The notes below the pieces were generated by a model that had not been told where the DNA came from, ran no database searches, and saw nothing but the letters and a program-made list of their open reading frames with translations. Position numbers and translations under genes: made by a program. DNA of 64,000 nt from the NCBI GenBank assembly GCA_016182785.1, contig JACPFU010000007.1:1-64000 (forward strand), read 5' to 3'. Below, one piece after another: positions 2,590 through 27,662 of this stretch (position 1 is its first letter; each line of letters opens with the position of its first letter). This stretch comes from Lysobacterales bacterium. GTDB taxonomy: Bacteria > Pseudomonadota > Gammaproteobacteria > Xanthomonadales > Ahniellaceae.

Positions 2590-2612
2590 GATGCAGTTCC
2601 CCCGTGGGCAGT

Positions 2613-2656
2613 TCCCCTTTGCCTGTTCATACGCGGGATGCGGTTCGATCTTTCGG
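2613..2656 (-). promoter_or_regulatory. 44-bp upstream element shared with the delta-60 gene
   Basis: Read on the minus strand, this element begins CCGAAAGATC, then CCGCATC, CGTATG and GGCAAAGG, and ends 24 bp before the start of the propeller gene. The same ordered blocks with identical spacing recur at 38053-38096, upstream of another exported propeller gene; I count 35 of 44 identical bases by eye. It may be an alternative-sigma promoter with CGTATG as the -10 region, or a leader element. This function is inferred. Confidence 0.5.
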
Positions 2657-2821
2657 TCACCCGGAACAGTTTCTGGAACCAGGCTGTGCCGAACGCGGCC
2701 AGCGCACAATCGCACTTCGGCGCTCTCCCTCGGAGCGGGCTGCACCGGTCCGGCCAATGTCAGCAGAGCCGCGATCCGTAGCGGCTGCGCTCCTTTCCGC
2801 GACATTGCTGCCGGCGTCTGC

Positions 2822-5800
2822 TCATTGATCGCAGCTGGGCGGGCCGGTGTCCGGGTTGGTTTCCAGGCTGTCGCGGAACAGGCGGTCGTCGTAGCAGGCG
2901 GGTCCGCCCATGAACAGGATCGAATCGTTCACCGGGCGGTAGCTGCCGAACTGGTTGGCATCAAGCGTCAGGCGCCAGGTGTTGTTGGTGGGCGGCAGCA
3001 GCGCAGCGCGTTGGCCGAAGCCATACCAGCCGATCGACGCGTCGTCTCCAGGCGTGCCGGGGCCGCGGTAGCGGAAACTCCAGCCGTACTCGGCGGCGAA
3101 ATTGCTGCCGTGATAGACCAGATCGACGATGGCGCGGCTGCAACGCTGCACCTCAAACCGGGCCATCTCGCGCAGGTAACGGTAGTAGCGCGGTCCGCCA
3201 CTGACATAGTCGCGTCCATGCTGGACGGAATACGCACGCTGCATGTCGGTTGCCTGGCTGCAGCCGTTCGCGCCGGCGGGCACCGACAGTTCGACACGCA
3301 CGTCGATGGTTGCCTGTCCGGTGTTCGTGACCTGAGCGGGCGCGCGGAAGATGACGCCAGTGGAGCCGACATCGCGTTGCGCTGCGTCCGGCAGTCCGTC
3401 GCCATTGCCATCGCCATTCAGTACGTTGTTTTCCTCGCTGTCGGGAATGCCATCGCCATCCGCGTCCGGCACCTGGGTCAGCGACCACACGCCGGAGTTG
3501 GTGCCGGCATGCAGCAGCGATGGGTTGAATGGGTCCAGCGTGAGGGCCAGGGCCGAATCCGCCGGCAGGCCGATGCTGATCGAGTGCCAGTTCACGCCAC
3601 CGTCGTCGCTCTTGTAGACCGAGCCTGGATTCGAGGGCGTGCCGGCGCCGGCGGCATAGACGATGTTCGGATCGCCCGGATCGACCAGGAGATCGCGAAT
3701 GTCCACGCGTGCCGCGATCCCCGCAGCCGACTCGACCCAGGTCGCGCCGCCGTTGGTGGTCTTGTAGATCGAGGCCGAGTTCGGCGTCTCGAAGTCGATG
3801 ACCGTGGCCCACAGGATGTCGTGGTTGGTTGGGTGCATCTCCAGCGCCAGCACGTCGAACACGACATTGCTGAAGCCCGCGTTGCGCGGCAGGCCGGTAT
3901 TGACCGGGAGCCAGTTGACGCCGCCATTGATGGTCTTGAACACGCCGGTGTGGATGTCAGCAAAGGTGATCGCGTCGCCGAGGTCGTAGTCGATGAAGCT
4001 CTTGTAGGTGCCGACGTACATCACGTTCGGGTCGCTCGGGCTGATCAGCACGTTTACCGGCGTCAACAGTTGCCCGAGGACGCCCAGGGTGTTGGTGCTT
4101 GGCGTCAAGTCACCGCTGATGTCGGTCCAGTTCACGTCAAGCGTGCCGCGCAGCGGGTGGGTGGCGGTGGTGTCGATGTTGTCCGAGCGGATAATGCGGT
4201 GGGTGAGGGTGACCACGCCACCGACGGCCGCAGACTGATTGCCGTTGGTGGTCGCCACCATGCGCTTGAGGGTGCCGCTGGTGCAGGCGGCGGGCGCGAG
4301 CGGGATCGTGCAGGAGCGCGGATCGAGGCGGATGTCGCGCACCGTGCCGAGCTGGATGTAGTCGTTCGGCGGCGTGCCGCGCCGTGGCAGGTCACCATCG
4401 AGCTTCGCCCAGCTCAGGCCGCCGGTGATGGAGCGGTAGATGCCGCCGTTGCGCGAGCGCAGCGTTGCCAGGCTGGAGCGACCGCTGGCATAGAGGTAGC
4501 TCGACGAGACCTGCCCGGCGCTGGTGCCGGCGCGCAAGGGATCGATGGTCAGCGCGCGGATGGTGGCGGCTTCGAGGCCGTTGTTGGCCGTTGCCCAGCT
4601 GGCGCCGCCATTGCTCGACCCGAAGATGCCGGAGGTCGAATAGAACGCATCGCTGAAGCCCGCGTACAGGCGTTGGCCGGTACCGCCGCCGCCGATCGTG
4701 GCCGGGTTGGTATGCACCAGCACGGCGCGGGTATTGACCGCGGCGAGGCCGTCGTTGATGCCGGCATTGCTCCAGTTCAGGCCGGCATCGAGGCTGCGGA
4801 ATACGCCACCGCCATCGCTTGCGATCCACAGGCCCGAACCGGGCGCCGGGAACCCGGGAGACGCGGTCAGGCCGTTCACCACCGCCGGCAACGGTGCCGC
4901 GGTTGCCGGATCGAGATAGCTGGGATTCGGGCTCAGGCCGGTGTTGCGTGGCGTCCAGCTCAAGCCGCCGTCGACCGAGACCGAGAAGCCGTTGGCGTCG
5001 GAATAGACCTCGTCGGCGATGCTCGGGTGCGCGATCAGGTGATTCGAGTTTCCGGTGACGGCGTTCCAGCTGCCGCCGTCGTTGTCGCTGCGCAGGTTGC
5101 CGACCGCGGGGTCGCCGGCGCCGACATAGACGCGGCTCCCGGCGCCGAACGCGATCGCGCCGACCCTCGGGATGTAGCCGGGATTGACGCCGGGGGCGAA
5201 CACTGGACCGAAGCTGAGCCCACCATCGGTGCTGCGGAAGAGCACGTTCGGCGACACCGGCGGCGCCGGGGTCGGATACAGGTAGTCGGTGCCGGCCAGC
5301 ACCAGCAGCGGATTGGCCGGATCGAAGGCGAGGCTGGCGAAACCCAGGCTGTTCGGGATGCCGGCGACCGCGTTGAAGCTGGCACCGGAATCGGTGCTGC
5401 GACGGATCATCACGTCGGCGCTCGGAAACGTTTCCTGGTCGAAGGCAGATAGCGCGAGCATCACCTGGCCGCCCGCTCCCGGAACATCCTCGATGCGCGT
5501 GGCGACCAGGTTCGCGGGCACGCTGTATCCGGTGGGCGCCCAGTTGTCGCCGCCATCGGCGCTGCGATAGAGGATGCCGAGCTTGTCGAAGGCGTACAGG
5601 GTTCCCGGCAGGTCCGGATCGAGCGTGAACGGCGTGCCGATGGCGGAATTGGCGATGCCGTTCTCGATCCGCGCCCAGCTCAAGCCGCCATCGAGCGAAC
5701 GAAACAGTCCGCCGCGCGTGGAGGCGTAGAGGGTGAATGCGTTGGCCGGATCGAAGCGCACCTCGTAGATCACGCCGCCGAACGGGCCATTGCTGGTCCA

Positions 5801-5939: not shown

Positions 5940-8915
5940 TCACGGGGCGCACCAGGGGATGACCACAGGCGCATCCTCGAAGCCGTCGGCAAACAGGCGG
6001 CTGTCGATGCAGGCGGGCCCACCGACGAAGCGGATCGCGTCCGGCTCCGGCCGATAGCTGCCCGGGCCTTGTGCGACCAGCGGCAGGCGCCAGGTCGAGT
6101 TGCCGATGCGTTGCATGCTGGCGGGCTCGAACCAGCCAACCTGTTCCAGATCGCCCGGGTCGGCCGGCCCGAACAGGCGGAAGCTCCAGCCGGGCAGGCT
6201 GAAGTCGGCACCGTGGTAGGTGAGGTCCACGACCGCGGTGGCGCAGTCGGTGATGTCGAACTGGCGTGCCGGCAGCGGGTGCTCGATGGTCAGGCCGGTG
6301 ACAGGGTCGACATCGATGGTGAGTTCGTCCGGCGCGATCGCGGACACGTCGACCGCCTGGCTGCACGGGTTTGCGCCCGGTCCGGTGCCGGAGACGATGC
6401 TGCTGGTGATGATTCCGCTCGGGCCCGAGCCGCGGAATATCACGCCAGTGGACCCGACGTCGCGCTGCAGCGAATCCATGAAGCCATCGCCGTTGCCATC
6501 CCCAGGGCCGGTGACGCCGCCCGGCACGTCCGGTGCCTGGTCCTCGACGCTGTCGGGCACGCCGTCGCCGTCCTGGTCGGGCCGGCGGGTGATGGTGTGG
6601 ACGCCGGTATCGGTGCCGGCATAGATCTGGTTCGGGTCGTGCGGATCGACCGCGACCGTGTACGCAGACTCGGCCGGCAGTCCGACGCTGATCGACAGCC
6701 AGCGCATGCTCTGGGTGCCGGTGTCGAACACGCCGCGGTAGACCGCGCCGGGGTTGGCGCCATTGCCGCCGGCGGCGGCATAGAGCACGTTGCTGTTCTG
6801 CGGGTCGAAGGCGAGGTCGCGCAGTTCCAGGCTGGGGTTGATGCCGGAGTCGGCGGCCTGCCAGCTCACGCCACGATTGGCGCTGCGCAGGATGGTCGAG
6901 GACTGCGAGTGGGTGGGGTCGTACATCGCGATCCAGAACACGTTCGGGTTGGTCGGGTCGATCAGGAAGTCGACCACGTCGAGCGATGCGTTCGGATAGG
7001 GCTGGTCGTCGGGGTCGAGCTTGGCCGGAAGGTTGTTGAAGCGCTGCCAGGTGGCGCCGGCGTTGGTCGAGTAGAACAGGCCGCTGGCGCGGGTGATGTC
7101 GACGACGGTGCCGTTGCCGGTGTTGAAATCGAAGAACGAGGATTCGGTGCCGACGAACACGGTGTCGACATTGGCCGGGTCGACCGCCACCACCGTGGGC
7201 GTGACGCGCTGCTCCACTTCGAGGATGCCGCCGATGAACACCAGGCTGCTGGGCGGGAAACCGGGGTGGCCATCAAGCGCGGTCCAGGTGCTGCCGCGGT
7301 CGTCGCTGCGCATCACGCGATGGCCGGTAGTGGACGACTCCGCCGCGGCCCAGGTGCGTCCGAAGCCGACCGCATAGAGCCGATCGAGCGGACCGCCACC
7401 GCCGAGCAGGCACGGGGGCGAGCTGCAAGTGTGCGGGTCGAGCGCGAGGCCACGCACGGCACCGAGGTCGAAGTTCAGCACCGGCGGCAGGTTGCCTTCG
7501 AGCAGCGACCAGGTCTGGCCGCCGCTGTCGCTGCGAAACAGCGCGTGATTGCGGTAGAGGTCGCCGAAGCTGTTCGAGGCGCGTCCGGCGGCGTACACCG
7601 TGGTGCCGAGCACGGTGCCGGTGGTGTTGGGGTCGATCACGATGGCCTGAATGTCGGCGGCGGCGAGTCCGGCATTGGTCGGCGCCCACGAGGCGGAGCC
7701 ATCGGACGAGGCGTAGAGCGCGGGCGAGGACACCGAGAACGTCGCCTGCCCGGCCCAGATCTGTTGCGACTGCTGCGGATGGATGGCCAGCGCGCGGATG
7801 GCCGCGCCGGCGGGTGGTCGCGAGATCGCGCTCCAGGTGCCGGGCCCGACCGCGCCGAACTGGTACAGCCCGGCGCCCTCGGTGCTCGCGAACAGACGCG
7901 GGGTCGCGCCGCCGCGCCACGCCAGTCGTGCGACACCCGCCATGATCGGGCTGCCGCCGCCGCTGTAGGTCGTATTCGGGGTGAGGCCGTTGGAGAAGGA
8001 GGTGAGCGTGTACGAGGGCATGGTGTAGTCGATGCGGACCACGCCGATGCCGCCACCGGCCCAGGCACGTCCGGCCACGGCCCGGTCCGCCACCACGGTG
8101 CCGGCGCCGTTGACGCCGGTGTTGCGCCAGGTGGCCCCAGCGTCATTGCTGTGGAATACCGAGTAGCCGCCGACCAGCGCCCAGATGTCGCCCGCAGGGC
8201 CAAACGAGATCTGCGTGACCTCGAGTCGATAGCCGCTGCCAGACGTGAAGTTGCTTGGCAGCGGCGTGAAACTCAGGCCGCCGTTGGTGCTGCGCCAGAC
8301 TGCATCGCCCTCGGTCGTCGGGTCGCCATCCAGACCGACCAGCACGGTGTTGTGGCTCGCGTCCGCGGGATCGAAGGCGATGGCCTTGACCGCCACTTCG
8401 GGCAGCAGGCCGATGCCGATCTGCATGAAATCGAGGCCGCAGTTCGGTGATCCGAACAGCATGGTGCCGCTACCGCCGGTGTCGGTCGCGGTGCCGAGCA
8501 GCAGCTTGCAGGCGACGCCGGGCACATCGACGATCGTGGACGGGTGCACGTTGCTCGGCAGGCTCTCGGGCAGGATCGCCCAGTTGTTGCCGCGATTGGT
8601 ACTGCGGTAGATGCGGCTCCAGGAATCGAAGGTGTAGAGCGTCGTCGGCTGCTCGGCATCGAGCGCGAGCGGCAGCGGGTTCGAGGAATCGGCGACGATG
8701 CCGGTACCGGCGTCTTCCCAGGTGAACCCGCTATCCATCGAGCGGTAGACGCCACCGAAGGTCGTCGCGTAGCCGCGGCTCGGGTCGGTCGGATCGAACA
8801 CCACCTCGTGCACGCGGCCACCGAGCGGTCCGGCGCTGGTCCATTCGGCATCGCCGGCGTGGGCGCCGAGTGCGCCAATCATCAGGATCGTGGCCACCAA
8901 CCGAGTGCAATGCAT
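5940..8915 (-). CDS. Exported BNR/VPS10-like repeat protein, paralog 3
   Basis: This 991-residue protein starts at an ATG at 8915, preceded by a GAAGGAAA ribosome site. MHCTRLVATILMIGALGAHA is the signal peptide. The longer in-frame start at 9053 is rejected because it precedes the ribosome site and adds no signal sequence. The layout matches paralogs 1 and 2: propeller-type repeats, a DQDGDGVPDS and GDGNGDG acidic segment, the TGVIFRG block, then a C-terminal domain with GGPAC.DSRLFADGFE. The final LFADGFE resembles the terminal motif of the delta-60 protein at 35831-38047. The gene lies 61 bp upstream of paralog 2 in the same direction, so co-transcription is likely. Function is unknown beyond being a secreted or surface repeat protein. 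Confidence 0.86.
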   Translation of the reverse strand: MHCTRLVATILMIGALGAHAGDAEWTSAGPLGGRVHEVVFDPTDPSRGYATTFGGVYRSMDSGFTWEDAGTGIVADSSNPLPLALDAEQPTTLYTFDSWSRIYRSTNRGNNWAILPESLPSNVHPSTIVDVPGVACKLLLGTATDTGGSGTMLFGSPNCGLDFMQIGIGLLPEVAVKAIAFDPADASHNTVLVGLDGDPTTEGDAVWRSTNGGLSFTPLPSNFTSGSGYRLEVTQISFGPAGDIWALVGGYSVFHSNDAGATWRNTGVNGAGTVVADRAVAGRAWAGGGIGVVRIDYTMPSYTLTSFSNGLTPNTTYSGGGSPIMAGVARLAWRGGATPRLFASTEGAGLYQFGAVGPGTWSAISRPPAGAAIRALAIHPQQSQQIWAGQATFSVSSPALYASSDGSASWAPTNAGLAAADIQAIVIDPNTTGTVLGTTVYAAGRASNSFGDLYRNHALFRSDSGGQTWSLLEGNLPPVLNFDLGAVRGLALDPHTCSSPPCLLGGGGPLDRLYAVGFGRTWAAAESSTTGHRVMRSDDRGSTWTALDGHPGFPPSSLVFIGGILEVEQRVTPTVVAVDPANVDTVFVGTESSFFDFNTGNGTVVDITRASGLFYSTNAGATWQRFNNLPAKLDPDDQPYPNASLDVVDFLIDPTNPNVFWIAMYDPTHSQSSTILRSANRGVSWQAADSGINPSLELRDLAFDPQNSNVLYAAAGGNGANPGAVYRGVFDTGTQSMRWLSISVGLPAESAYTVAVDPHDPNQIYAGTDTGVHTITRRPDQDGDGVPDSVEDQAPDVPGGVTGPGDGNGDGFMDSLQRDVGSTGVIFRGSGPSGIITSSIVSGTGPGANPCSQAVDVSAIAPDELTIDVDPVTGLTIEHPLPARQFDITDCATAVVDLTYHGADFSLPGWSFRLFGPADPGDLEQVGWFEPASMQRIGNSTWRLPLVAQGPGSYRPEPDAIRFVGGPACIDSRLFADGFEDAPVVIPWCAP

Positions 8916-9097: not shown

Positions 9098-12000
9098 ATG
9101 GTTCTTGGTTCATTGGGCGGCCGCCTGCTGCGGCCGCTGCTGGCTGTGTGCGTGCTGCTGCCGCTGGCTGCGCAAGCCCAGGTCATTCACACCTATGACG
9201 ACGTGCCGGGCGCGGCGGTCGCGATTCCCGACAACGGCTGCGCCAATCCGCTGGTGCGAAGCTTCGTGGTCGGCGATTCGTATCCGGTCGGTAATGTCGC
9301 GCTGGGGCTCGAAGTCACGCATCCGTGGCGCAGCGATGTCGTGGTGACGCTGACCGCCCCCGACAGCTCCGTCGTGACCCTGACCGATGGCGTCGCCAGC
9401 GACGGCCAGGACCACTACCGGGTGATGCTGTCGACCAACGGCGAAGGTGCGCTCAACGATGGCGACATCGATCCGGCGGCCAATGTCCATTACCGCCGGC
9501 TGGTGTCGGTGCCTGCGCTCGCCGGGTTCTATGCCGGCTCATCCGCCGGGACCTGGCAGTTGCGCATCTGCGACGACGAGGCCGCCGATGTCGGCAGCTT
9601 CGAGCGCGCGCGACTGGTGCTGCGCGACGACACCACCACGTTGACCGCCGCCTGCGGCCCCAGCCTCAGCTACGACTGGGGTGCCAACGGCAACGGCAAC
9701 CCCTTCGCCAGCACCTCGTTGAACGGCATCACGCTCAGCCAGGGAGCCACCAGCGGCGAGGCGCCGACCGACTCGGGCAGCGGCCTGCCGAGCTTCGTGA
9801 CGCGCACCGGCACGCTGGGCGCGCACGCCGGCTACTACGTGCTCGGCATGGATACCAGCGGCGACACCGAGCTCTCGGCCGAAGCCACCGTGTTCACGTT
9901 TTCCGAACCGGTGCTCGGGCTCACCTTCGACCTGCTCGATGTCGACACCGGCACCTTCGAGGACTACGTGCGCATCGACGCGCTCGACACCGATGGCGCG
10001 CTGGTTCCGAAGCAGGCGGCGCTGCAGGGAACGCTGGCTCACGCCGGAGACTGGAGCGAGGCCGACGACTCGGTCAACAGCAATTCGACGAATGGCAACG
10101 TGACCTACACCTTCGACGGGCCGGTGGCGTCGATCCGCGTGCAGTACGCGCAGGGTGACCAGCCGCAGACCAACTCGCGCTTCCAGAACATCGGCATTTC
10201 CGACTTCCGCTTCTGCGCGCTCGACTATGGCGATGCGCCGGCGAGCTACGTGACCGCCTTCGCCGCCGGCGGCGCCCGCCATGGTCTGGCTGGGCGCAGC
10301 CTGTATCTCGGAACCCGGCCCGACGGCGAAGCCGATGGCGTGCCCGACGTCGCCGCCAACAGCGATGGCGCCGACGAAGACGCGCTGACCCTGCCGACGC
10401 TGGTGTCCTCGCCAACGCCGCATTTCGAGTGCGGCAGCTATGCCGCGGCGATCGACGAGTTCTGCGTGTCGGTCGCCCTCGCCAATGGCACCGGCACTGC
10501 GGCGCAGCTGGTCGGCTGGTTCGATGCCAATGGCGATGGCGATTTCAACGACGCCAACGAACGCAGCCTGCCTGCGCTTGGCAACGGCAGCGGCGGAGCC
10601 GGCGATGCGAGCTTCAGCACCGGGAACATCCCCGCCGCCAGCAGCGGCAGCGTGGTGCTGGTGTGGGGAGGCATGACCGCGATCACGCAGAACGATACCT
10701 ATCTGCGCCTGCGCCTGAGCCGCGACGCCACGTTTTTCAGCGACTCGCCGCCGCCGCCGTCCACCGGGCTCGCGAGCGACGGCGAGGTCGAGGACCATCG
10801 CGTCCCGGCCGGCACGCTGCCGGTCACCCTGTCGCACTTGTCATCGCGGGTGCTCGGCGGCGGCGTGCGCGTGCAGTTCGAGACCGCCACCGAAACCGGC
10901 AACGTCGGCTTCCGCCTGGTCGAGCGCGTCGATGGCCGCGAGCTGGCCCTGCATGCGGGCATGCTCGCGAGCGAACGCAGCGACAGCGCCGAAGTCAGCC
11001 GCTATGCGTTGACGCTGGCCGCGGCGCCGGCCTCCGGTCGCTTCTACATCGTCGATCAGGATGTGCGAGGGCGCCGCAGCGCGCACGGTCCGTTCGAGGT
11101 CGGTCGCGACTATGGCGCGCCCGCCGCGAGCGCGGACTTCGATTGGGGCGCGACCCGCGGCGCATTGGCCGAACTCGCACGGCTTCGCCAATCCGCAGGC
11201 AGCGCCGGCACGGTGCGGCTGTGGGTGCAGCAGCCGGGCTTCCAGCGCGTGACGCACGCGATGCTGCTGGCAGCGGGCGTCGACCTGCGTGGCGTCGCCG
11301 TCGATCGCATCGGGCTCACGTTCCGCGGCCAGCCGGTGCCACGGCGCGTGCACGCGACTGGCGCGGTGTTCGCCGCGGACAGCGCGATCGACTTCCCGGC
11401 CGATCCCGGGTACTCGCTGTACACCAAGGAGTTCCCGTACCTGCTGCGCGTCGACGGCGTTGGCGTCGAGGACATCGCGCAGGACACGCTCGCCGCCACC
11501 GACGCGGTGGACGCCTGGTACTGGGCCGAGTCCCAGTACGCGCCGGATGCGCGCTACACGTTTGCCTCGCCCACCGACGACCCGTGGTACGCCGAGCGCG
11601 TGCTTGCCTACGCAAACCAGCCGGCGCAGCTGTCGCGCACGCTCGCTGCCAGCGCCATCGCCAGCGTCGAGGGCGCCACGCCGCAACTCGTGGTCGATCT
11701 GATCGGCGTCACCAACTGGCCGGGCAGCGCGCCCGATCATCGCGTCGAATTGCGCGTCGATGGCGTGAGCGTCGGCAGCGCCGTATTTGACGGCCTGCGC
11801 GCGCAGAGGCTGACGGCGAAGACCTCGCTGCCGGCCTCCGGGAACCTGCCGGTCGAACTGCGCGTCAGCGGCGACACCGGCTTCGACTACGACCTGGTCT
11901 ACCTCGACCGCATGGCCCTGCGTTACCCGCGGCGCATGGTCGCCGAAGCCGGCAGGTTGGACATCCCCGCGCTGCAAGCCGCCGGTGATGCCTGGGCCGA

Positions 12001-13291
12001 GATGGCGGGCGATGACGATGCCGGGGAGTCCTTGCTGGCGTCCTCCTTCGAGGGCCAGGACCAGGTTCCCGGTTTCGTTGCCGCAGGACTCGGTGGCGAT
12101 GCGTTGGGCTATGCCGACACTGGCCGCAGCTGGCGTGCGCTGCGTGCTGTCGCGACCGCGGGCGGCTCGATGTGGCCGGTGGCGGCTGGAGCGCGCTACT
12201 GGCTCGGCGAACCGAGCGCGCTCGCCGCACCGCGGGTCGACACGCTGGGCGAAGTGGCGCCGCTGGTGCAGGGCCAGGCCGACTATCTGGTGATCACGCA
12301 CGCATTGTTCGAGCCGCACCTGGCACCGCTGGTCGCGCGCCAGCAGGCGCGCGGGCTCTCGGTGCGCGTGGTCGATGTCGCGCAGGTCTACGCGCAATTC
12401 AACGACCACGTGCCGGAAGCGCAGGCGATCCAGCGCTTCATCGACAAGGCCGTGGCGCAGATGGGCGTGCAGTACGTGCTGCTGGTCGGTGCCGACAGCT
12501 ACGACTACAAGAACTTCCTCGGCAGCGGCTCGGTCAGCCTGGTGCCGACGCGCTACATGGCCTACGGCGACGTCGTGCACTACGCACCCGCCGATGGCCG
12601 CTACGTCGATCGCGATGGCGACGGCGCGCCCGAAGCCGCGATCGGTCGCCTGCCGGTGCGCAGCGTCGCCGAGCTGCAGCAGCTGCTGGCGAAATCGGCA
12701 GCCGCGGCCGCTCCGAGGCGTGCGCTGCTGGTCAGCCCGGTGGATGAAAGCGACGCACCGTTCCGTGCCGTGCACGAGGGCTTCGCGGCGCGTTGGCCGG
12801 CCGGTTGGACACTCGATCGTGCCTACGTCGACGAGATCGGTCTGGAGCCGACCCGTGCCGCGCTCGCCAGTGCGCTGAACCAGCGTCTCGGGGTGCTGAG
12901 CTTCGTCGGTCATTCCGCGCCCACGCAGTGGAGCTTCGATCCGATCCTGAGTACCGCGGACCTGGTCGGTCGCAGCGGGCTGGCCGACCTGGTCGTGCAA
13001 TGGGGTTGCTGGAACAGCTACTTCGTCGCACCGACCGCGAACACCCTGGCACACGGCTTCCTGCTGACGCCGGGATCGGGCGCGGCGGCGGTGATCGGCG
13101 TGACCAGCCTCACCGACCTGAAGTCGCACGAGGCGCTCGGCAACCTGTTGCTGCCGGAACTGGTCGCGGGCGTACGCATCGGCGATGCATTGCGGCTGGC
13201 GAAGATGCAGCTGGCGGCGCAGGGCGAGCGCTATCGCGACATCCTGACCGCGGCGACCCTGCTCGGCGATCCCGCCGAGCCGATGCCCTGA
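9098..13291 (+). CDS. Gingipain-type cysteine peptidase (family C25), secreted multidomain
   Basis: This 1397-residue protein begins with a signal peptide ending around AAQAQ, preceded by a GGGGGA ribosome site. Residues about 30-185 look like a proprotein-convertase P domain (VALGLEVTHPWRSDVVVTL, then LRICDDEAADVGSFE). A DYGDAP...DGADED to DGEVED segment (about 375-570) matches a GEVED-type domain. The C-terminal third is a C25 peptidase: YLVITHALFEPHLAPLVARQ opens it, VLLVGADSYDYKNFL and an RYVDRDGDGAPEAAIGRLPV segment follow, and the catalytic pair is His1272 in FVGHS and Cys1304 in QWGCWNS. The 32-residue His-Cys spacing is close to that of gingipain R. The domain set fits a secreted protease; substrates are unknown. 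No obvious type IX secretion C-terminal domain follows. Confidence 0.85.
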   Translation: MVLGSLGGRLLRPLLAVCVLLPLAAQAQVIHTYDDVPGAAVAIPDNGCANPLVRSFVVGDSYPVGNVALGLEVTHPWRSDVVVTLTAPDSSVVTLTDGVASDGQDHYRVMLSTNGEGALNDGDIDPAANVHYRRLVSVPALAGFYAGSSAGTWQLRICDDEAADVGSFERARLVLRDDTTTLTAACGPSLSYDWGANGNGNPFASTSLNGITLSQGATSGEAPTDSGSGLPSFVTRTGTLGAHAGYYVLGMDTSGDTELSAEATVFTFSEPVLGLTFDLLDVDTGTFEDYVRIDALDTDGALVPKQAALQGTLAHAGDWSEADDSVNSNSTNGNVTYTFDGPVASIRVQYAQGDQPQTNSRFQNIGISDFRFCALDYGDAPASYVTAFAAGGARHGLAGRSLYLGTRPDGEADGVPDVAANSDGADEDALTLPTLVSSPTPHFECGSYAAAIDEFCVSVALANGTGTAAQLVGWFDANGDGDFNDANERSLPALGNGSGGAGDASFSTGNIPAASSGSVVLVWGGMTAITQNDTYLRLRLSRDATFFSDSPPPPSTGLASDGEVEDHRVPAGTLPVTLSHLSSRVLGGGVRVQFETATETGNVGFRLVERVDGRELALHAGMLASERSDSAEVSRYALTLAAAPASGRFYIVDQDVRGRRSAHGPFEVGRDYGAPAASADFDWGATRGALAELARLRQSAGSAGTVRLWVQQPGFQRVTHAMLLAAGVDLRGVAVDRIGLTFRGQPVPRRVHATGAVFAADSAIDFPADPGYSLYTKEFPYLLRVDGVGVEDIAQDTLAATDAVDAWYWAESQYAPDARYTFASPTDDPWYAERVLAYANQPAQLSRTLAASAIASVEGATPQLVVDLIGVTNWPGSAPDHRVELRVDGVSVGSAVFDGLRAQRLTAKTSLPASGNLPVELRVSGDTGFDYDLVYLDRMALRYPRRMVAEAGRLDIPALQAAGDAWAEMAGDDDAGESLLASSFEGQDQVPGFVAAGLGGDALGYADTGRSWRALRAVATAGGSMWPVAAGARYWLGEPSALAAPRVDTLGEVAPLVQGQADYLVITHALFEPHLAPLVARQQARGLSVRVVDVAQVYAQFNDHVPEAQAIQRFIDKAVAQMGVQYVLLVGADSYDYKNFLGSGSVSLVPTRYMAYGDVVHYAPADGRYVDRDGDGAPEAAIGRLPVRSVAELQQLLAKSAAAAAPRRALLVSPVDESDAPFRAVHEGFAARWPAGWTLDRAYVDEIGLEPTRAALASALNQRLGVLSFVGHSAPTQWSFDPILSTADLVGRSGLADLVVQWGCWNSYFVAPTANTLAHGFLLTPGSGAAAVIGVTSLTDLKSHEALGNLLLPELVAGVRIGDALRLAKMQLAAQGERYRDILTAATLLGDPAEPMP

Positions 13292-13330: not shown

Positions 13331-14929
13331 TCACAGGTTCTGGTAGTTCGGCCCGGCGCCGCCTTCCGGTGTCACCCAGGTGATGATCTGGTACGGGTCC
13401 TTGATGTCGCAGGTCTTGCAGTGCACGCAGTTCGCGGCGTTGATCTGCAGGCGCAAACCGGATTCGTCCTGGACCATCTCGTAGACGCCGGCCGGACAGA
13501 ACTTGGTGCACGGATTGCCGAACTCCTCGACGCAGCGGGTGATGCAGATGTTGGTGTCGGCGACGCGCAGGTGCACCGGCTGGTCTTCGTCATGCTCGGT
13601 CGCGGCGAAGTAGACCGAGGCGAGGCGGTCGCGCGGCGGCAGCGAACGCTCGACCCAGTGGCGGTCGATCGCGCCGATCTCGTTCACGCGCTTCAGCTGC
13701 GCATGGTCGGCGTGATTGCGCAGGGTCCACGGCGAGTAGCCCGCGGTCACCGTTTCCCAGCCGGCGTTGATCATGCCGAGCCACAGGCCGCCGTGGAATC
13801 CGGGCTTGATGTTGCGCACCTTTTTCAGTTCGGACAGGACCGGTGAAGCGCGCAACGCGGCGTCGAAGCCGACCACGCTGTTGGTGCGGGCGATGTGTTC
13901 GGCTGCGAGCATGCCGCCGCGCATCGCCTGATGCGTGCCCTTGATCTTCGGCACGTTCAGCGTGCCGGCGCCGTCGCCGATCAGGATCGCCCCCGGCATC
14001 TCGACTTGCGGCAACGACTGGAAGCCGCCGGCCGCGATCGCGCGTGCACCACCGGAGAGGATGCTGCCGCCCTCGAGCATCGGCTTCACCAGCGGGTGGT
14101 GCTTGAGCTGCTGGAACAGCTCGAATGGCATCAGCTTCGGGTCGCGGTAGTCGAGCCCGCAGACGTAGCCGATCGCGATGCGATCCTGGTCGAGGTGGTA
14201 GATGAAGCTGCCGCCATAGGTCGCGCTGTCCGCCGGCCAGCCGACGGTGTGGATGATGCGCCCTGGCGTCGCGCGCCCTGCAGGCACCTGCCACAGCTCC
14301 TTCATGCCGACGGAATAGGTCTGCGGGTCGCTGTACTTGTCCAGCTCGAAGCGCTGGATCAGCTGCTTCGACAGGTGCCCGCGCACGCCCTCGGCGAGCA
14401 CGGTGATCGCGGCGTGGATATCGACGCCCTGGGTGTAGCCGGGTTTGTGCGAGCCGTCCTTGGCCACGCCCATGTCGCCGATGCGCACGCCGCAGACGGC
14501 ACCCTTGGTGTCGAACACCGGTTCGCTGGCGGCGAAGCCCGGGAAGATCTCGACGCCGAGTGCTTCCGCCTGTGGCGCCAGCCACGCGCACAACGCACCC
14601 AGCGAGACGATGACGTTGCCGTGGTTGTTCATCTGCGGCGGCGTCGGCAGCCGATAGTGCTTGTTCGCGGTGAGCAGGAAGAAGTCGTCGGCGCCGGCAG
14701 CGACGCAGATCGGTGGCGGCGACTTGCGCCACTCCGGCAGCAGCGCGTCGAGCGGGCCGGTCTCGATGACGGCGCCGGAGAGGATCTGCGCGCCGACCGC
14801 CGAGGCCTTCTCGATCACGCAGATGCTGGTGTCGGGCTTGAGTTGCTTGAGGCGGATCGCGAACGCGAGCCCGGCCGGGCCGGCACCGACGACGCAGACG
14901 TCGTATTGCATGATTTCGCGTTCGCTCAT
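13331..14929 (-). CDS. Electron transfer flavoprotein-ubiquinone oxidoreductase
   Basis: This 532-residue membrane-associated enzyme passes electrons from ETF, reduced by acyl-CoA and amino-acid dehydrogenases, to ubiquinone. The FAD-binding dinucleotide fold is at the N-terminus (VCVVGAGPAGLAFAIRL). The C-terminus carries the [4Fe-4S] cysteines: one in GNPCTKFCPAGVYE, then the cluster motif NCVHCKTCDIKDP. The protein ends GGAGPNYQNL, as usual for the family. The start at MSEREIMQYD puts the nucleotide-binding motif at the expected position; the longer reading upstream is arginine-rich and overlaps the divergent gene. Length and motif order fit the family well, and the call is firm. Confidence 0.95.
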   Translation of the reverse strand: MSEREIMQYDVCVVGAGPAGLAFAIRLKQLKPDTSICVIEKASAVGAQILSGAVIETGPLDALLPEWRKSPPPICVAAGADDFFLLTANKHYRLPTPPQMNNHGNVIVSLGALCAWLAPQAEALGVEIFPGFAASEPVFDTKGAVCGVRIGDMGVAKDGSHKPGYTQGVDIHAAITVLAEGVRGHLSKQLIQRFELDKYSDPQTYSVGMKELWQVPAGRATPGRIIHTVGWPADSATYGGSFIYHLDQDRIAIGYVCGLDYRDPKLMPFELFQQLKHHPLVKPMLEGGSILSGGARAIAAGGFQSLPQVEMPGAILIGDGAGTLNVPKIKGTHQAMRGGMLAAEHIARTNSVVGFDAALRASPVLSELKKVRNIKPGFHGGLWLGMINAGWETVTAGYSPWTLRNHADHAQLKRVNEIGAIDRHWVERSLPPRDRLASVYFAATEHDEDQPVHLRVADTNICITRCVEEFGNPCTKFCPAGVYEMVQDESGLRLQINAANCVHCKTCDIKDPYQIITWVTPEGGAGPNYQNL

Positions 14930-15009: not shown

Positions 15010-16782
15010 ATGACGGCGATGCTCGCGGTCGTGGCCCTGGCCGGGACCACGTCGAATCCTCCGGACGGCTTTGCGGCGGGCATCCGCTCGCTCGGCGGCT
15101 TTGCGCCCTTTGGTGCCGATGAAGTCGACAGCGATGCACTGCGCCTGTGGGTGGCGCGCAGCTTCCGCGGCGCCGGTCTGGCTGCCGCCGATGGCCGCGT
15201 GCTGGCGATCGACGGGCGCCTGCGTGATCGCGCCGAATTCGTGCAGCGCCACGCGCTTGCCAGTGACGCCAGTGACGCCGCGCTGATCCTGGCCGCCTAC
15301 GCCGCGCGCGGGCCGGCGCTGTTCGAGTCGCTCGATGCCGATATCGCGCTGCTGCTGGTGGATGCGCCGGCGCGACGGGTGATCCTGTTCCGCGACGTAC
15401 TCGGGGAGCGCGGGCTGCGCTATGCCGTGCGCGGCACGCAGCTGCAGGTATCGAGCCGCGGCAGCGCGATCGTGGCGATGCGCGGCGAGACGCTGGTGCC
15501 GAACGAGGTCGCGATGGCGCACTATTTCGCGCTGCGTGCGCCGCCCGACGAGGTGGCCTGGATGCAGGGTGTCGAGGAACTGCCGGCCGGCGGCCTGCTG
15601 CTGTTCGACGACGGCCAGCGTCGCTACCGCCGCTTCACCCCCGATCTCCCGACTGCACCGCTGCGCTTTGGCTCCGACGCCGAAGCCGCCGAAGCCTGGC
15701 GAGAAGTCGTGGCCGGCGCAGTGGCGCGGGCGTGTGCGGATACGGATCGTGCAGCCATCAGCCTGAGCAGTGGCATCGATTCGACCCTGATCGCCGCGTT
15801 CCTGGATCCTGGTCGCGCCTGTGCGGTGAGCTGGACCACTCCCAAGTTCCCGGAGTGCGACGAGTCGGTGCTGGCCGGCGCGACGGCGAATCTGCTCGGC
15901 CTGCCGCACCGACTGGTCCAGGGCAGCGATCTGTTGCCGGACGCGCACCTGCACTCGTGGCCGATCGAGCCGGAAGCGCCTTACGCGAACGTCTTTCGCC
16001 TGTTGCTGCAGGCGACCTGGCAGGCCGCGGCCGGGTGTGGTGCGAATGTGCTCCTGAATGGTTGCTTCGGCGACGAACTGCAAGTCGCGCCGCGCCATTG
16101 GCCGGGCTCGCTGGTGCAGGAGCGCGGCTGGAACGCGCTGTTGCGGGAACTCGCCAGCCAGCGGCACGAGCGCGGAACGCGCGCACTGTGGGCGGACCCG
16201 GGGTTGCGCCGCTGCCTTCTGCCGCAGCGGCGCGCGAGGCCGCCGAAATGGGTCACCGCGGCGTCTCGGCAGCAACTCCGTGCGGGCGGTGCGGAGGGCC
16301 CGTGGGGGCTGCGACTGCACCGCCTGTACGGCCGCGAGGCGGCGGAGAGCGGCGACCTGTTGCGTCGATTTGCCAACAGCCTCGGGCTCGAGTTGCGCTA
16401 CGTCTATCGTGATCCCGCGCTGCTGCGCTTTGCGATCGCCTTGCCGGCCCACTACGGGCACTCGTTGCGCGGGTCGAAATGGCTGAGCCGGGAAATCCTG
16501 CGGGGACGCGTGCCCGAGGCGGTGCGCCGAGGATCGCGAGTCGGGTTGCTGTCGCCGATGTTTCGCACCGCGATCAAGCGGCTTGATCGCGCTTGGGTCG
16601 ATTCGCTGCTGTTGCGGCCGGATGCGGTCTGGCCGCGGCATGTGGCAGCGCCGGCCCTGCGGAAAATCCTCGGACTGCATTCCGACTCGGATCAGTTCAT
16701 GGCATGGACGGTGCTTTCGGCCGAAGTGTGGCGACTCTTTCACGCAGAACCCGACCGCGCGCTGCTAAGATTTCCGCCATAG
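15010..16782 (+). CDS. Asparagine-synthase-like enzyme, probable lasso peptide macrolactam synthetase
   Basis: This 590-residue protein has the two-domain layout of asparagine synthetase B. The N-terminal Ntn-type domain lacks the catalytic Cys2 (it begins MTAML), so it should not hydrolyse glutamine. The C-terminal domain, from about residue 230, has the ATP-pyrophosphate loop in the form LSSGIDSTLIAAF. This is the combination found in lasso-peptide cyclases, which adenylate an Asp/Glu side chain and close a ring on the core N-terminus. The 56-residue precursor gene begins 19 bp downstream, which supports that role. No RRE/PqqD-like or transglutaminase-like protease gene flanks it. It could be another aminotransferring asparagine-synthase homolog, but the precursor makes the lasso role the best reading. 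Confidence 0.8.
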   Translation: MTAMLAVVALAGTTSNPPDGFAAGIRSLGGFAPFGADEVDSDALRLWVARSFRGAGLAAADGRVLAIDGRLRDRAEFVQRHALASDASDAALILAAYAARGPALFESLDADIALLLVDAPARRVILFRDVLGERGLRYAVRGTQLQVSSRGSAIVAMRGETLVPNEVAMAHYFALRAPPDEVAWMQGVEELPAGGLLLFDDGQRRYRRFTPDLPTAPLRFGSDAEAAEAWREVVAGAVARACADTDRAAISLSSGIDSTLIAAFLDPGRACAVSWTTPKFPECDESVLAGATANLLGLPHRLVQGSDLLPDAHLHSWPIEPEAPYANVFRLLLQATWQAAAGCGANVLLNGCFGDELQVAPRHWPGSLVQERGWNALLRELASQRHERGTRALWADPGLRRCLLPQRRARPPKWVTAASRQQLRAGGAEGPWGLRLHRLYGREAAESGDLLRRFANSLGLELRYVYRDPALLRFAIALPAHYGHSLRGSKWLSREILRGRVPEAVRRGSRVGLLSPMFRTAIKRLDRAWVDSLLLRPDAVWPRHVAAPALRKILGLHSDSDQFMAWTVLSAEVWRLFHAEPDRALLRFPP

Positions 16783-16801
16783 CGTCTGCAGGGGGTAGGC
16801 C

Positions 16802-16972
16802 GTGAGCGCAGCATCCAACGACATCGCTGGAAGTTCCACGCAGGTCGAACATCGCCTGGCCTACTCCGCACCGCGCCTGGTCGAACTTGGCGAACTGCGG
16901 GATCTCACTCTGGGCGGATCGCCGGGGGGTGGTGATTCCGGAGCCACGGGAACGCAGAACCCGTTCGGTTGA
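16802..16972 (+). CDS. Lasso-peptide-type precursor (56 aa)
   Basis: The gene starts at GTG 16802 after a strong GGGGGTAGG ribosome site and encodes 56 residues. The leader contains the lasso-family motif YxxPxLxxxGxxxxxT exactly: Tyr21, Pro24, Leu26, Gly30 and Thr36. Since leader cleavage normally occurs two residues after the start of that Thr, the core would be Gly38 to Gly56. Its eighth residue is Asp45, so a Gly1-Asp8 eight-membered macrolactam is possible, with an 11-residue tail ending in NPFG. The core is rich in Gly and has no Cys. It lies between the cyclase gene and the HprK-like gene. Leader recognition is a direct sequence match; the cleavage site and ring are inferred. Confidence 0.8.
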   Translation: MSAASNDIAGSSTQVEHRLAYSAPRLVELGELRDLTLGGSPGGGDSGATGTQNPFG

Positions 16973-17015
16973 GTTCGCGTTGCTGCGGGTCCAAGGCGGC
17001 TGCGGTATCGAGGCG

Positions 17016-17876
17016 ATGCGTCGTCTGCATCTGGGCGCGCCAGACCGGGCTGGTGCTACGGAGTGCGTCGCCGGGGTTGGGGTGCTCGCCGCGTCTGCTT
17101 CCGGCGAGCTGGGGCCCGAATCGCTGCAGGCACTGCCACCCGTCCATTGGCGGGCGTTTGGCGACGCTGCTCGTGCGGAATCGGGTGTTCTGGTCGATGC
17201 CATCCGCGACGTGACCGTGCGTTCCGAGGGAACCCAGATGGAATTGCGGTTTGCGGGCCTCGGGCGCTTGCGGCTCGATCTGGAGGCGCAATCCGCGGAA
17301 GTGGACGAGGACATCGATCCGCGCGCCGCGCGCGAGATCCTGCTTGGGCCCGGGTTGCTGTTGCTGTTGGCGACGCGCGGGATCTATGGCATCCACTCTT
17401 CGGCCATCCGTGTCGATGGCCGTTGTTTCGTGTTGCCGGCGCTTTCCGGGAGCGGCAAGTCCACGGTTGCGCGACTGGCTGCGGAGCTGGGGGCCGAGGC
17501 GTTGACCGACGACATCTCGCCGTTGCTGTTGCACGACGGCGTGCTGCGGCTGCGACCGCGGTTTCCGCAACTGAAGTGGGACGAGCCGCTGCGCACGCCG
17601 GACCTGGACCTTGCGGTCAGTGCGATCGTGTTCCTGCAGCGCGGCGGCGAGGCGCTGGCGCTTGAGCCGCTGGCTGCTGCCGAGGCGATGCGCCTGCTGA
17701 TCCGCGACACCGTCGCGGCGCGGCTGTTTCCGCCGCAGCTGCTGCGCGCACACCTGGAAGCCATGGCGCGCTTCGCCGAGTCGGTGCCGTGCCGCCGCCT
17801 GCATTGGCCTGAAGCGGCACCCGCCGCGTTCGCCGAGCAATGTGCCCGCGCCCTGTCACTGCTCGCCCGGGTTTGA
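17016..17876 (+). CDS. HPr-kinase-like protein of RiPP/lasso type
   Basis: The protein carries a P-loop, GSGKSTVARLA, near residue 144 and an LTDDIS acidic motif soon after, typical of the HprK/PEP-carboxykinase-like kinases found in lasso-peptide loci such as that of paeninodin. There such a kinase can phosphorylate the precursor tail; here Thr and Ser residues in the tail are candidate sites, but this is inference. The start is uncertain. ATG 17016 has GAGG just upstream, while codon use stays coding-like before it, so GTG 16932 or TTG 16980, which would run closer to or into the precursor gene, are possible. The 286-residue reading ends at 17876 and leaves 39 bp to the exporter gene. Confidence 0.75.
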   Translation: MRRLHLGAPDRAGATECVAGVGVLAASASGELGPESLQALPPVHWRAFGDAARAESGVLVDAIRDVTVRSEGTQMELRFAGLGRLRLDLEAQSAEVDEDIDPRAAREILLGPGLLLLLATRGIYGIHSSAIRVDGRCFVLPALSGSGKSTVARLAAELGAEALTDDISPLLLHDGVLRLRPRFPQLKWDEPLRTPDLDLAVSAIVFLQRGGEALALEPLAAAEAMRLLIRDTVAARLFPPQLLRAHLEAMARFAESVPCRRLHWPEAAPAAFAEQCARALSLLARV

Positions 17877-17915
17877 AGCTTGCGGCCCCGGCGGCCATCG
17901 GGGACAGTGACGGAC

Positions 17916-19148
17916 ATGCAATCCCGTGACTTCGATACCCGCGTCCGCTTCGTTGCCGAACTGGCGCGGCGCCTGCATCAGTACGGCACCTCGGCGCCTC
18001 GGCTGGAGAAGGCGATCGATACCGTGAGCGCGCGTCTTGGTCTGTTGCCGAGCACGCTGTCGACGCCGACTTCGATCACGCTCTCGTTCGCGGATCCCGC
18101 CGATGGCGAGGACGCCTTGCCGCGGCGCACGATGGTGCTGCGCGTGAATCCGGGCGACGTCAACCTGCGCCGCCTGTGCGAGGTCGACGCGATCGCCGAG
18201 CGCGTCTTCAACAACGAACTCGACATCGAGCAGGGGCTCGCGGAGTTGCGCGCGCTGCGCTCGGGCATGTCGGTGCGCGCGGTCGGCATGCAGGTGCTCA
18301 GCTTCGGCATCGTCGGCGGCACCGTCGCCGCGATGATCCGCGGCTCCTGGGCCGATGTCGTGGCCGCCGCCGCGATCGGTCTGATCATCGGTCTGCTGGC
18401 GCTGGTCGCGGAACGCCGCCCGAACTTCGCACCCTCGTTCGAGGCCGTGGCCGCCTGCGTCGCGATGCTGCTGGCCTCGCTGATCGCGGCGACGCTGGAG
18501 CCGCTGAACGTGCGCTCGGTGCTGATCGCGGCGCTGATCGTGCTGATGCCCGGCCTGGCGCTGACCACGGCGGTGTCGGAGCTGTCGACCCAGCATCTGG
18601 TCGCCGGCACCGTGCGCATGATGGGCGCGGCGGCGGTGCTGCTGAAACTATCGCTCGGTACCGTCGCCGGCGTGCAATTGGCCAAGGCGTTCGGTTGGGC
18701 GGCGCTGCCCGGCGTGCTGCCCGCGGTACCGGCATGGGCGGAGTGGATCGCATTGCTCGCGGCCAGCTATTCGTTCGCGGTGCTGTTCCAGGCCGCGAGT
18801 CGCGACTATCCGCTGGTGATGCTGTCGGCCTGGCTCGGTTACCTGGCGACGCGCGTCGGTTCGGCCTGGGCCGGGCCGGAGTTCGGCGTGTTCATCGGTG
18901 GCCTGGTGGTCGGCAGCGCGGCGAATGTCTATGCGCGCTGGCAGCGGCGACCGGGCGCGCTGGTGCGGGTGCCCGGGATTATCCTGCTGGTGCCCGGGTC
19001 GGTCGGATTTCGCAGCCTGTTCTTCGCGTTCGAGCGCGATGTCTACCTGAGTCTCGATACCGCGTTTTCGTTGCTCGCAATCCTGATTGCACTGGTCGCC
19101 GGCCTGCTGTTTGGAAACCTGCTGGTGCCGCCGCGCCGTTCGATCTGA
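17916..19148 (+). CDS. Threonine/serine exporter family membrane protein (ThrE-type)
   Basis: This 410-residue inner-membrane protein starts with a soluble domain containing LARRLHQYGTSAPRLEKAI, the hallmark N-terminal segment of the ThrE family (ThrE N- and C-terminal halves in one chain). About ten hydrophobic helices follow, starting around residue 118 (IVGGTVAAMI) and ending with ILIALVAGLLFGNLLVPP. The family exports threonine and serine by proton motive force. ATG 17916 is chosen; GTG 17907 is an in-frame alternative. It follows the lasso-type locus in the same direction after 39 bp, so it may be co-transcribed, but its length and motifs fit amino-acid export, not the ABC exporters usual for lasso peptides. 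Confidence 0.88.
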   Translation: MQSRDFDTRVRFVAELARRLHQYGTSAPRLEKAIDTVSARLGLLPSTLSTPTSITLSFADPADGEDALPRRTMVLRVNPGDVNLRRLCEVDAIAERVFNNELDIEQGLAELRALRSGMSVRAVGMQVLSFGIVGGTVAAMIRGSWADVVAAAAIGLIIGLLALVAERRPNFAPSFEAVAACVAMLLASLIAATLEPLNVRSVLIAALIVLMPGLALTTAVSELSTQHLVAGTVRMMGAAAVLLKLSLGTVAGVQLAKAFGWAALPGVLPAVPAWAEWIALLAASYSFAVLFQAASRDYPLVMLSAWLGYLATRVGSAWAGPEFGVFIGGLVVGSAANVYARWQRRPGALVRVPGIILLVPGSVGFRSLFFAFERDVYLSLDTAFSLLAILIALVAGLLFGNLLVPPRRSI

Positions 19149-26862: not shown

Positions 26863-27662
26863 ACGACGCCGAAGCGCCATTGATCGAGGTGGTCGGGCTG
26901 CAGGCCTTCTACGGTCGCCGGCGCATCCTGCACGGTGTCGACTTCAGCGTTCGTCGCGGCGAGATCCGCGTGATCATGGGCGGCTCGGGTTCCGGCAAGT
27001 CGACGCTGCTGCGACACCTGATCGGCCTGCAGCGCCCGGTCGCCGGCAGCGTGCGCATCCTCGGTGTCGACGCCGGCCGTGCCAGCGCGCGCGAGCTGCT
27101 CGCGGTGCGGCGCCGGCTCGGGGTTTCGTTCCAGGGCGGCGCGCTGATCACCTCGATGTCGGTCGGCGACAACGTCGCGCTGCCGCTGCGCGAGCACACC
27201 GCGCTCGACGAGACCACGATCCGCATCATGTCGCGGCTCAAGCTCGAGTTCGTCAATCTCGGCGGCTTCCACGACCTGATGCCGTCGCAGCTCTCGGGTG
27301 GCATGACCAAGCGCGCGGCATTGGCGCGCGCGATCGTGATGGATCCGGAACTGCTGTTCTTCGACGAGCCGAGCGCCGGGCTCGACCCGGTGGTCTCGGC
27401 CGAGCTCGACGAACTGATCCTGCGCCTGCGCGATGCGCTGCGCATGACCATCGTCGTGGTCACCCACGAACTGGAATCGGCGTTCCGCATCGCCGACCGC
27501 ATCACCGTGCTCGACCAGGGCGACATCCTCGCCGAGGGCAGTGTCGCCGAAGTCCGTGCCAGTGCCGACGAACGCATCCAGGACCTGCTGCACCGCCGCC
27601 CGCGGCCAGTCGAGGTCGATGTCGACGACTACCTGCGCCGACTCACCGACGAGGACGGCTGA
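26859..27662 (+). CDS. mlaF: MlaF-family lipid ABC transporter ATPase
   Basis: This 267-residue protein is the cytoplasmic ATPase of the transporter. The Walker A motif is GGSGSGKSTLLRHL, the Q-loop area SFQGGALITSMSVGDNVALP is characteristic of MlaF, the ABC signature is LSGGMTKRAALARA, and Walker B is LLFFDEPSAGLDP. It pairs with the MlaE-like permease encoded just upstream with a 4-bp overlap. The next gene is convergent after 4 bp, so the operon ends here without mlaD, mlaC or a VacJ lipoprotein. A MlaD-type partner could be encoded elsewhere. Confidence 0.95.
   Translation: MNDAEAPLIEVVGLQAFYGRRRILHGVDFSVRRGEIRVIMGGSGSGKSTLLRHLIGLQRPVAGSVRILGVDAGRASARELLAVRRRLGVSFQGGALITSMSVGDNVALPLREHTALDETTIRIMSRLKLEFVNLGGFHDLMPSQLSGGMTKRAALARAIVMDPELLFFDEPSAGLDPVVSAELDELILRLRDALRMTIVVVTHELESAFRIADRITVLDQGDILAEGSVAEVRASADERIQDLLHRRPRPVEVDVDDYLRRLTDEDG

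Follow-up and report, generated by a model that had tools for sequence, protein, structure and literature searches.

The genes for a lasso-type cyclase, a lasso precursor and an HprK-like kinase, found in that order at positions 15010-17876 of the DNA analysed here, probably represent only half of a pathway for a lasso peptide, the remaining genes being located elsewhere in the same genome. The window, meaning the whole stretch analysed, covers the first 64 kb of the 109-kb contig C23 in a genome assembly (G000) of 3.80 Mb in 43 contigs that is 93.6% complete. Lasso clusters are usually recognised by their cyclase, leader protease and leader-recognition genes together. An earlier note on this DNA, which was correct in both the coordinates and the order of the three genes, described the locus as lacking the B1 and B2 maturation genes. 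The description holds for the locus, as tblastn with proteins of the same genome and of its relatives as queries found no B1 or B2 homologue in the 64-kb window. It does not hold for the genome, which has one B2 gene and one PqqD-like B1 gene on contig C11.

Gene content of the locus

The cyclase gene (C; 15010-16782, plus strand) encodes a protein of 590 aa with an asparagine-synthetase fold and an N-terminal amidotransferase-like domain that is without the usual Cys2. Both domains match above their cut-offs (PF00733, 80.8-82 bits; GATase_7, PF13537, 32.4 bits), while the lasso cyclase model NF033535 gives 91 bits, under its curated cut-off of 525. In an alignment of 10 lasso-locus cyclases, S-x-G-x-D-S and other positions are invariant. 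The precursor gene (A; 16802-16972, plus strand) encodes 56 aa, with a leader ending in YSAPRLVELGELRDLTL and the core GGSPGGGDSGATGTQNPFG. It is followed by the kinase gene (K; 16980-17876, plus strand), for which the start is uncertain (TTG at 16980 or ATG at 17016) and the frame overlaps the precursor gene upstream. A promoter scan at the operon gave nothing useful.

The left flank is formed by an ETF-quinone-oxidoreductase-like gene (ETF-QO; 13331-14929, minus strand), which is the same neighbour as in genomes G003, G004, G005 and G007. A giant, probably secreted protein of 1397 aa with a P-domain, GEVED and a C-terminal Peptidase_C25 domain (9098-13291, plus strand; PF01364, 175.6 bits) adjoins the ETF-QO gene. 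On the right, the junction at which the B1 gene of relatives is missing (17877-17915, plus strand), with the spacer CTTGCGGC...GGGGACAGT, runs directly into a gene for a ThrE-like exporter (17916-19148, plus strand; PF06738, 169.8 bits) that is also the neighbour in G002, G004 and G005. The single ABC-like match in the window, at 26904-27527 (29% identity over 220 aa), lies about 9 kb off and is not part of the lasso locus. Since the trio is located 15 kb inside C23, its separation from the B genes is not a contig-end artefact of that contig.

Maturation genes on a second contig

The earlier note had proposed a search of the full genome for PqqD-like and B2-like genes. Genome-wide HMM searches found exactly one B2 (PF13471) and one PqqD-like B1 (PF05402), the only copies in the genome, adjacent to one another at 1389-2108 of C11 and flanked by a nucleotidyltransferase gene (275-1363) on one side and an ABC exporter gene (2147-3796) on the other. 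The B2 protein scores 75.3 bits against NF033537 (cut-off 33) and retains the catalytic Cys and His; the usual acidic residue after the His is absent from most C11-type B2 proteins, and the complete cluster of G150 is alike in this. The B1 protein scores 67.1 bits against PF05402, and the best curated lasso-PqqD models stay below their cut-offs. Only one full-length cyclase-type PF00733 match and one lasso leader over cut-off were present genome-wide. With cyclase, precursor, B1 and B2 each present once in the genome, maturation most likely takes place in trans. Gene clustering is usual for lasso pathways and is not part of the chemistry; here the B1 and B2 that lasso biosynthesis requires are available in trans only, with C-A-K on C23 and B1-B2-ABC-nucleotidyltransferase on C11.

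Three readings had been offered for the missing genes. Supply from elsewhere agrees with the B2 and B1 genes of C11 and with the same division in relatives, whereas a B-independent route and a different product are unsupported. We found no evidence for a non-lasso product.

Precursor and core conservation

The precursor is the single match in the genome over the cut-off of the leader model NF033521 (lasso_leader_L3; 29.5 bits, cut-off 19, E 4.7e-7), and its leader, YSAPRLVELGELRDLT, contains the motif YxxPxLxxxGxxxxxT as previously described. The window core has the N-terminal Gly of a lasso core and an Asp within the stretch, positions 7-9, in which a lasso core carries Asp or Glu. A core pattern is common to the window precursor and 16 related precursors, in which the ring is nearly fixed across genera (GxSxGxG[D/E]SG) and the tail is variable. 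Ser3 and Ser9 are invariant in the 17 cores, as is Gly1 (17/17), although the 20-position search model may itself have selected for Gly1 and Ser3 to some extent; positions 5 to 10 fall outside that model. Position 8 is Asp in 15 cores and Glu in the other two. This covariation, which a ring-closing acid would be expected to show, backs Asp8 as the ring acceptor. The cores of G298 and G150, which are of another type, were excluded from the core table. The near-invariant ring was seen at 16862-16969 of the window and in the precursors of loci L010, L012, L013, L015, L016, L017, L094-L100, L102, L103 and L105.

The kinase

Thirteen aligned lasso-linked kinases share invariant H139, S156/G157/G159/K160/S161 and D177/D178 as well as an FPQLK region. 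The match of the kinase to the HprK-related kinase A model (TIGR04352) is weak, and the kinase alignment, searched against PDB sequences, returned mostly P-loop and PEPCK matches. HprK/P structures ranked at the top of a fold search with a low-confidence model of the kinase (mean pLDDT 55). Together, the weak sequence matches, the conserved H / GxGKS / DD positions and the predicted fold support the HprK-like label that the protein had been given. Known lasso kinases act on the C-terminal Ser of the precursor (PMC8498205). None of the 17 related cores ends in Ser, that of the window ending in NPFG, yet an HprK-like kinase often adjoins precursors of the GxSxGxG[D/E]SG type. Either the kinase targets an internal Ser or it has a different substrate.

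Split layout in related genomes

The leader type of the window was found in 14 of the 397 genomes of an order-wide sample. B2 and the precursor are no more than about 2 kb apart in G002, G016, G018, G027, G102, G107, G137 and G150, and on different contigs in G000, G008, G035, G042, G048 and G298. About half of the examined genomes with this leader type thus keep B2 away from the precursor, an approximate fraction, as the comparison genomes are mostly drafts and G009 and C218 of G042 are on short contigs. The split is also seen in the complete chromosome of G003, where C-A-K maps to 5.78 Mb, B2 to 4.56 Mb and a PqqD-like B1 to 2.01 Mb. In G008, two contigs carry two cyclases and three precursors between them, and a third carries a single B2-B1-kinase-nucleotidyltransferase island, a layout that G009 resembles; splits also occur in G035, G042, G048 and G298. 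A cyclase and leader of the window type lie apart from a C11-type B2 in G008, G009, G035 and G048. Within the family, all eight genomes with such a cyclase have PqqD and neither of the two without it does (Fisher p = 0.022). A contig-level scan for relatives returned just two close ones.

The leaders native to clusters with C11-type B1 and B2 are similar to that of the window (G298, YAAPQLAHLGTLRDLT; G150, WNTPSLNRLGDVRLLT), and the precursors that accompany C11-type B1/B2 in G008 and G009 have leaders closely similar to it. This similarity of leader sequences makes pairing across loci plausible.

Two further arrangements were observed. A lone B2 without an adjacent B1 is located beside a peroxiredoxin (bcp-like) gene in G048 (L138, 5907-6422) and G035 (L139, about 8210-8521). 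G042 apparently has two more lasso-type clusters with their own cyclase-like genes (L144, L142) besides the split one.

Origin of the split

At the same chromosomal site as in the window, G002 has a complete C-A-K-B2-B1 cluster followed by the ThrE-like gene. In G004 and G005, of the same genus, the order is ETF-QO / C-A-K-B1 / ThrE and B2 is not at the site; no true B2 was found in the assembled sequence of these genomes, which are 86% and 67% complete. The G004 locus corresponds to L057 (7185-10410) and that of G005 to L018. The window has ETF-QO / C-A-K / ThrE with both B2 and B1 gone, and its spacer ahead of ThrE aligns with the G004 spacer between the kinase stop and the B1 start.

The C11 island resembles a different cluster. 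In G150, a complete cluster is arranged as nucleotidyltransferase, K-A-C-B2-B1 on the other strand, and ABC exporter, and the C11 island corresponds to this cluster minus the kinase-precursor-cyclase trio, with the B1 proteins 59% identical and part of the ABC exporter 67% identical. On C11, the stop codons of the nucleotidyltransferase and B2 genes are just 25 bp apart, in the place that the trio occupies in G150. In trees in which several nodes are weak, the window cyclase groups with those of G004 and G005 (100/100) and then G002 (93/89), apart from the G150 cyclase; the C11 B2 forms a clade (90/90) with its counterparts in G008, G009, G035, G048, G150 and G298; and the C11 B1 groups with the G150 B1. 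From the site orders and the trees, two ancestral cluster types explain the split, the window cyclase belonging to the first and the B1 and B2 of C11 to the second. The simplest reading of these sequences is that reciprocal loss from two clusters left one complete hybrid pathway. The route we infer is the loss of B2 and then B1 from C-A-K-B2-B1, and of C-A-K from N|K-A-C-B2-B1|D, which left complementary remnants.

Both loci are incomplete next to the complete clusters of G002 and G150, and the window cyclase scores lower against PF00733 than its G004 relative does (125 bits), as might be expected if the two were unrelated remnants, the window trio decaying without B genes and the C11 island without cyclase and precursor. 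We regard such decay as unlikely. All reading frames are intact with third-position GC of the coding type, active-site positions are kept, the two loci together supply every gene of the set exactly once, and the same complementary split is found again in several genera.

The C11 pair might also serve a second, unassembled cyclase-precursor pair, with the window cyclase working without leader recognition or with another protease. C11 begins in a collapsed repeat only 274 bp before the nucleotidyltransferase gene: its first 139 bases (L002), 135 bp from that gene, are a repeat common to about 10 contig ends of the genome, which stopped leftward extension of the contig. A second cyclase could hide to the left of the nucleotidyltransferase or in the roughly 6% of the genome that is possibly missing. 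In addition, as cited in PMC10885120, a 2019 paper reported lasso formation for pseudomycoidin without the leader and the leader peptidase. This explanation is nonetheless quite improbable in our view. No second cyclase and no second leader was found in genome-wide profile searches of the 93.6% complete assembly; the G150 trio sits between the nucleotidyltransferase and B2, where C11 has its 25 bp; and the cyclase-less islands of G008 (C4) and G042 (C95) have no adjacent cyclase despite assembled sequence on their flanks.

Giant Peptidase_C25 neighbours

Proteins similar to the giant Peptidase_C25 protein of the window accompany about ten related lasso loci, which occupy several unrelated chromosomal positions. 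In G004, G005, G007 (two), G008 (both loci), G035 and G048 (both loci) they are no farther than about 10 kb from the lasso genes, and the G002 locus has three copies, the most distant of them some 20 kb off. Besides the window copy, such proteins are at L047 1606-8076, L048 10676-15295, L049 2527-7104, L127 5425-11655, L136 3556-7893 and in L169. Nearly every copy retains the His and Cys motifs of the C25 domain. Control sequence totalling 1.6 Mb from four genomes had no C25 copies other than the two to the left of the G002 lasso locus, and C25 was absent near the lasso loci of G003, G018, G027, G042, G150, G298 and family f8. The link between C25 and lasso loci is an association in these sequences, and in the open-access literature we found no paper that connects lasso peptides with C25 peptidases.

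The recurrence and intact motifs of the C25 proteins would fit a role of the giant neighbour, through its C-terminal C25 peptidase and in place of B2, in cleaving the leader, a very improbable arrangement given that lasso maturation is cytoplasmic whereas the C25 proteins appear secreted (N-terminal signal-like stretches), that G002 has C25 neighbours together with a local B2, and that the loci of G003, G018 and G027 have no such neighbour. We put forward as a speculation, possible rather than probable, that the lasso subgroup of this order combines a near-fixed ring, GxSxGxG[D/E]SG, with exchangeable trans-acting B1-B2 modules that are sometimes shared by several cyclases, and that its product is a partner (ligand, inhibitor or processing substrate) of the giant secreted C25 proteins rather than a variable antibiotic. 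The near-invariant ring and the C25 neighbours provide a concrete starting point for the role of these peptides.

Proposed pathway

Maturation in trans by the C11 genes remains our preferred reading of the window locus. Gene content, copy numbers, family membership, conserved active-site positions and comparative gene orders were established directly, and by analogy with known lasso systems we infer from them the joint action of the two halves and each of the biochemical steps. The PqqD-like B1 encoded on C11 would bind the window precursor through its YxxPxL leader, and the B2 cysteine protease encoded beside it would cut the leader after Thr(-2)-Leu(-1). Using ATP, the window cyclase would activate Asp8 and close the Gly1-Asp8 ring around the tail, and the product would be exported by the C11 ABC transporter. 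The core may also be modified by the window kinase and perhaps next by the C11 nucleotidyltransferase, though not at a C-terminal Ser because the core has none.

Implications and comparison with known systems

In about half of the examined genomes with this leader type, B2 is remote from the precursor; mining based on gene clusters would reject or misclassify such genomes, and cyclase-less B1-B2 islands would look like orphans to cluster searches. In the RRE-Finder study (PMC7470986), about half of the matches to the discrete lasso RRE model were without a co-occurring peptidase and cyclase and were treated as possible false positives; some of these unclustered matches could be islands like C11. 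A B1-B2 module shared by several precursors would also offer a natural test of how leader recognition stays specific. In open-access work we found no lasso pathway in which B1 and B2 are remote from the cyclase, nor any paper in which these cores are printed.

The leader motif, cyclase, B1, B2, exporter and Gly1-Asp8 logic of class II lasso clusters with discrete B1 and B2 (A-C-B1-B2-D) are all present in this genome. In contrast to those clusters, C-A(-K) and B1-B2(-D) are at separate loci and the ring of the subgroup is nearly invariant across genera. An HprK-like kinase gene beside the precursor gene is likewise found in the paeninodin and SyanK kinase clusters (PMC8498205), in which the C-terminal Ser is phosphorylated; here 0/17 cores end in Ser, and Ser3 and Ser9 are invariant. 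Pseudomycoidin combines a kinase with a nucleotidyltransferase (PMC8498205), and the present genome encodes a kinase and a nucleotidyltransferase-family protein as well, but on different contigs and with a core that has no C-terminal Ser. Trans-encoded partners are known for other RiPPs, among them the remote PAD of citrulassin (PMC12971885) and the unclustered proteases of lanthipeptides (PMC8960859), where, as here, a needed enzyme is encoded away from the precursor. In those systems the remote gene encodes a tailoring enzyme or a lanthipeptide protease, whereas in the present genome the genes lying apart are those for lasso leader recognition and leader cleavage.
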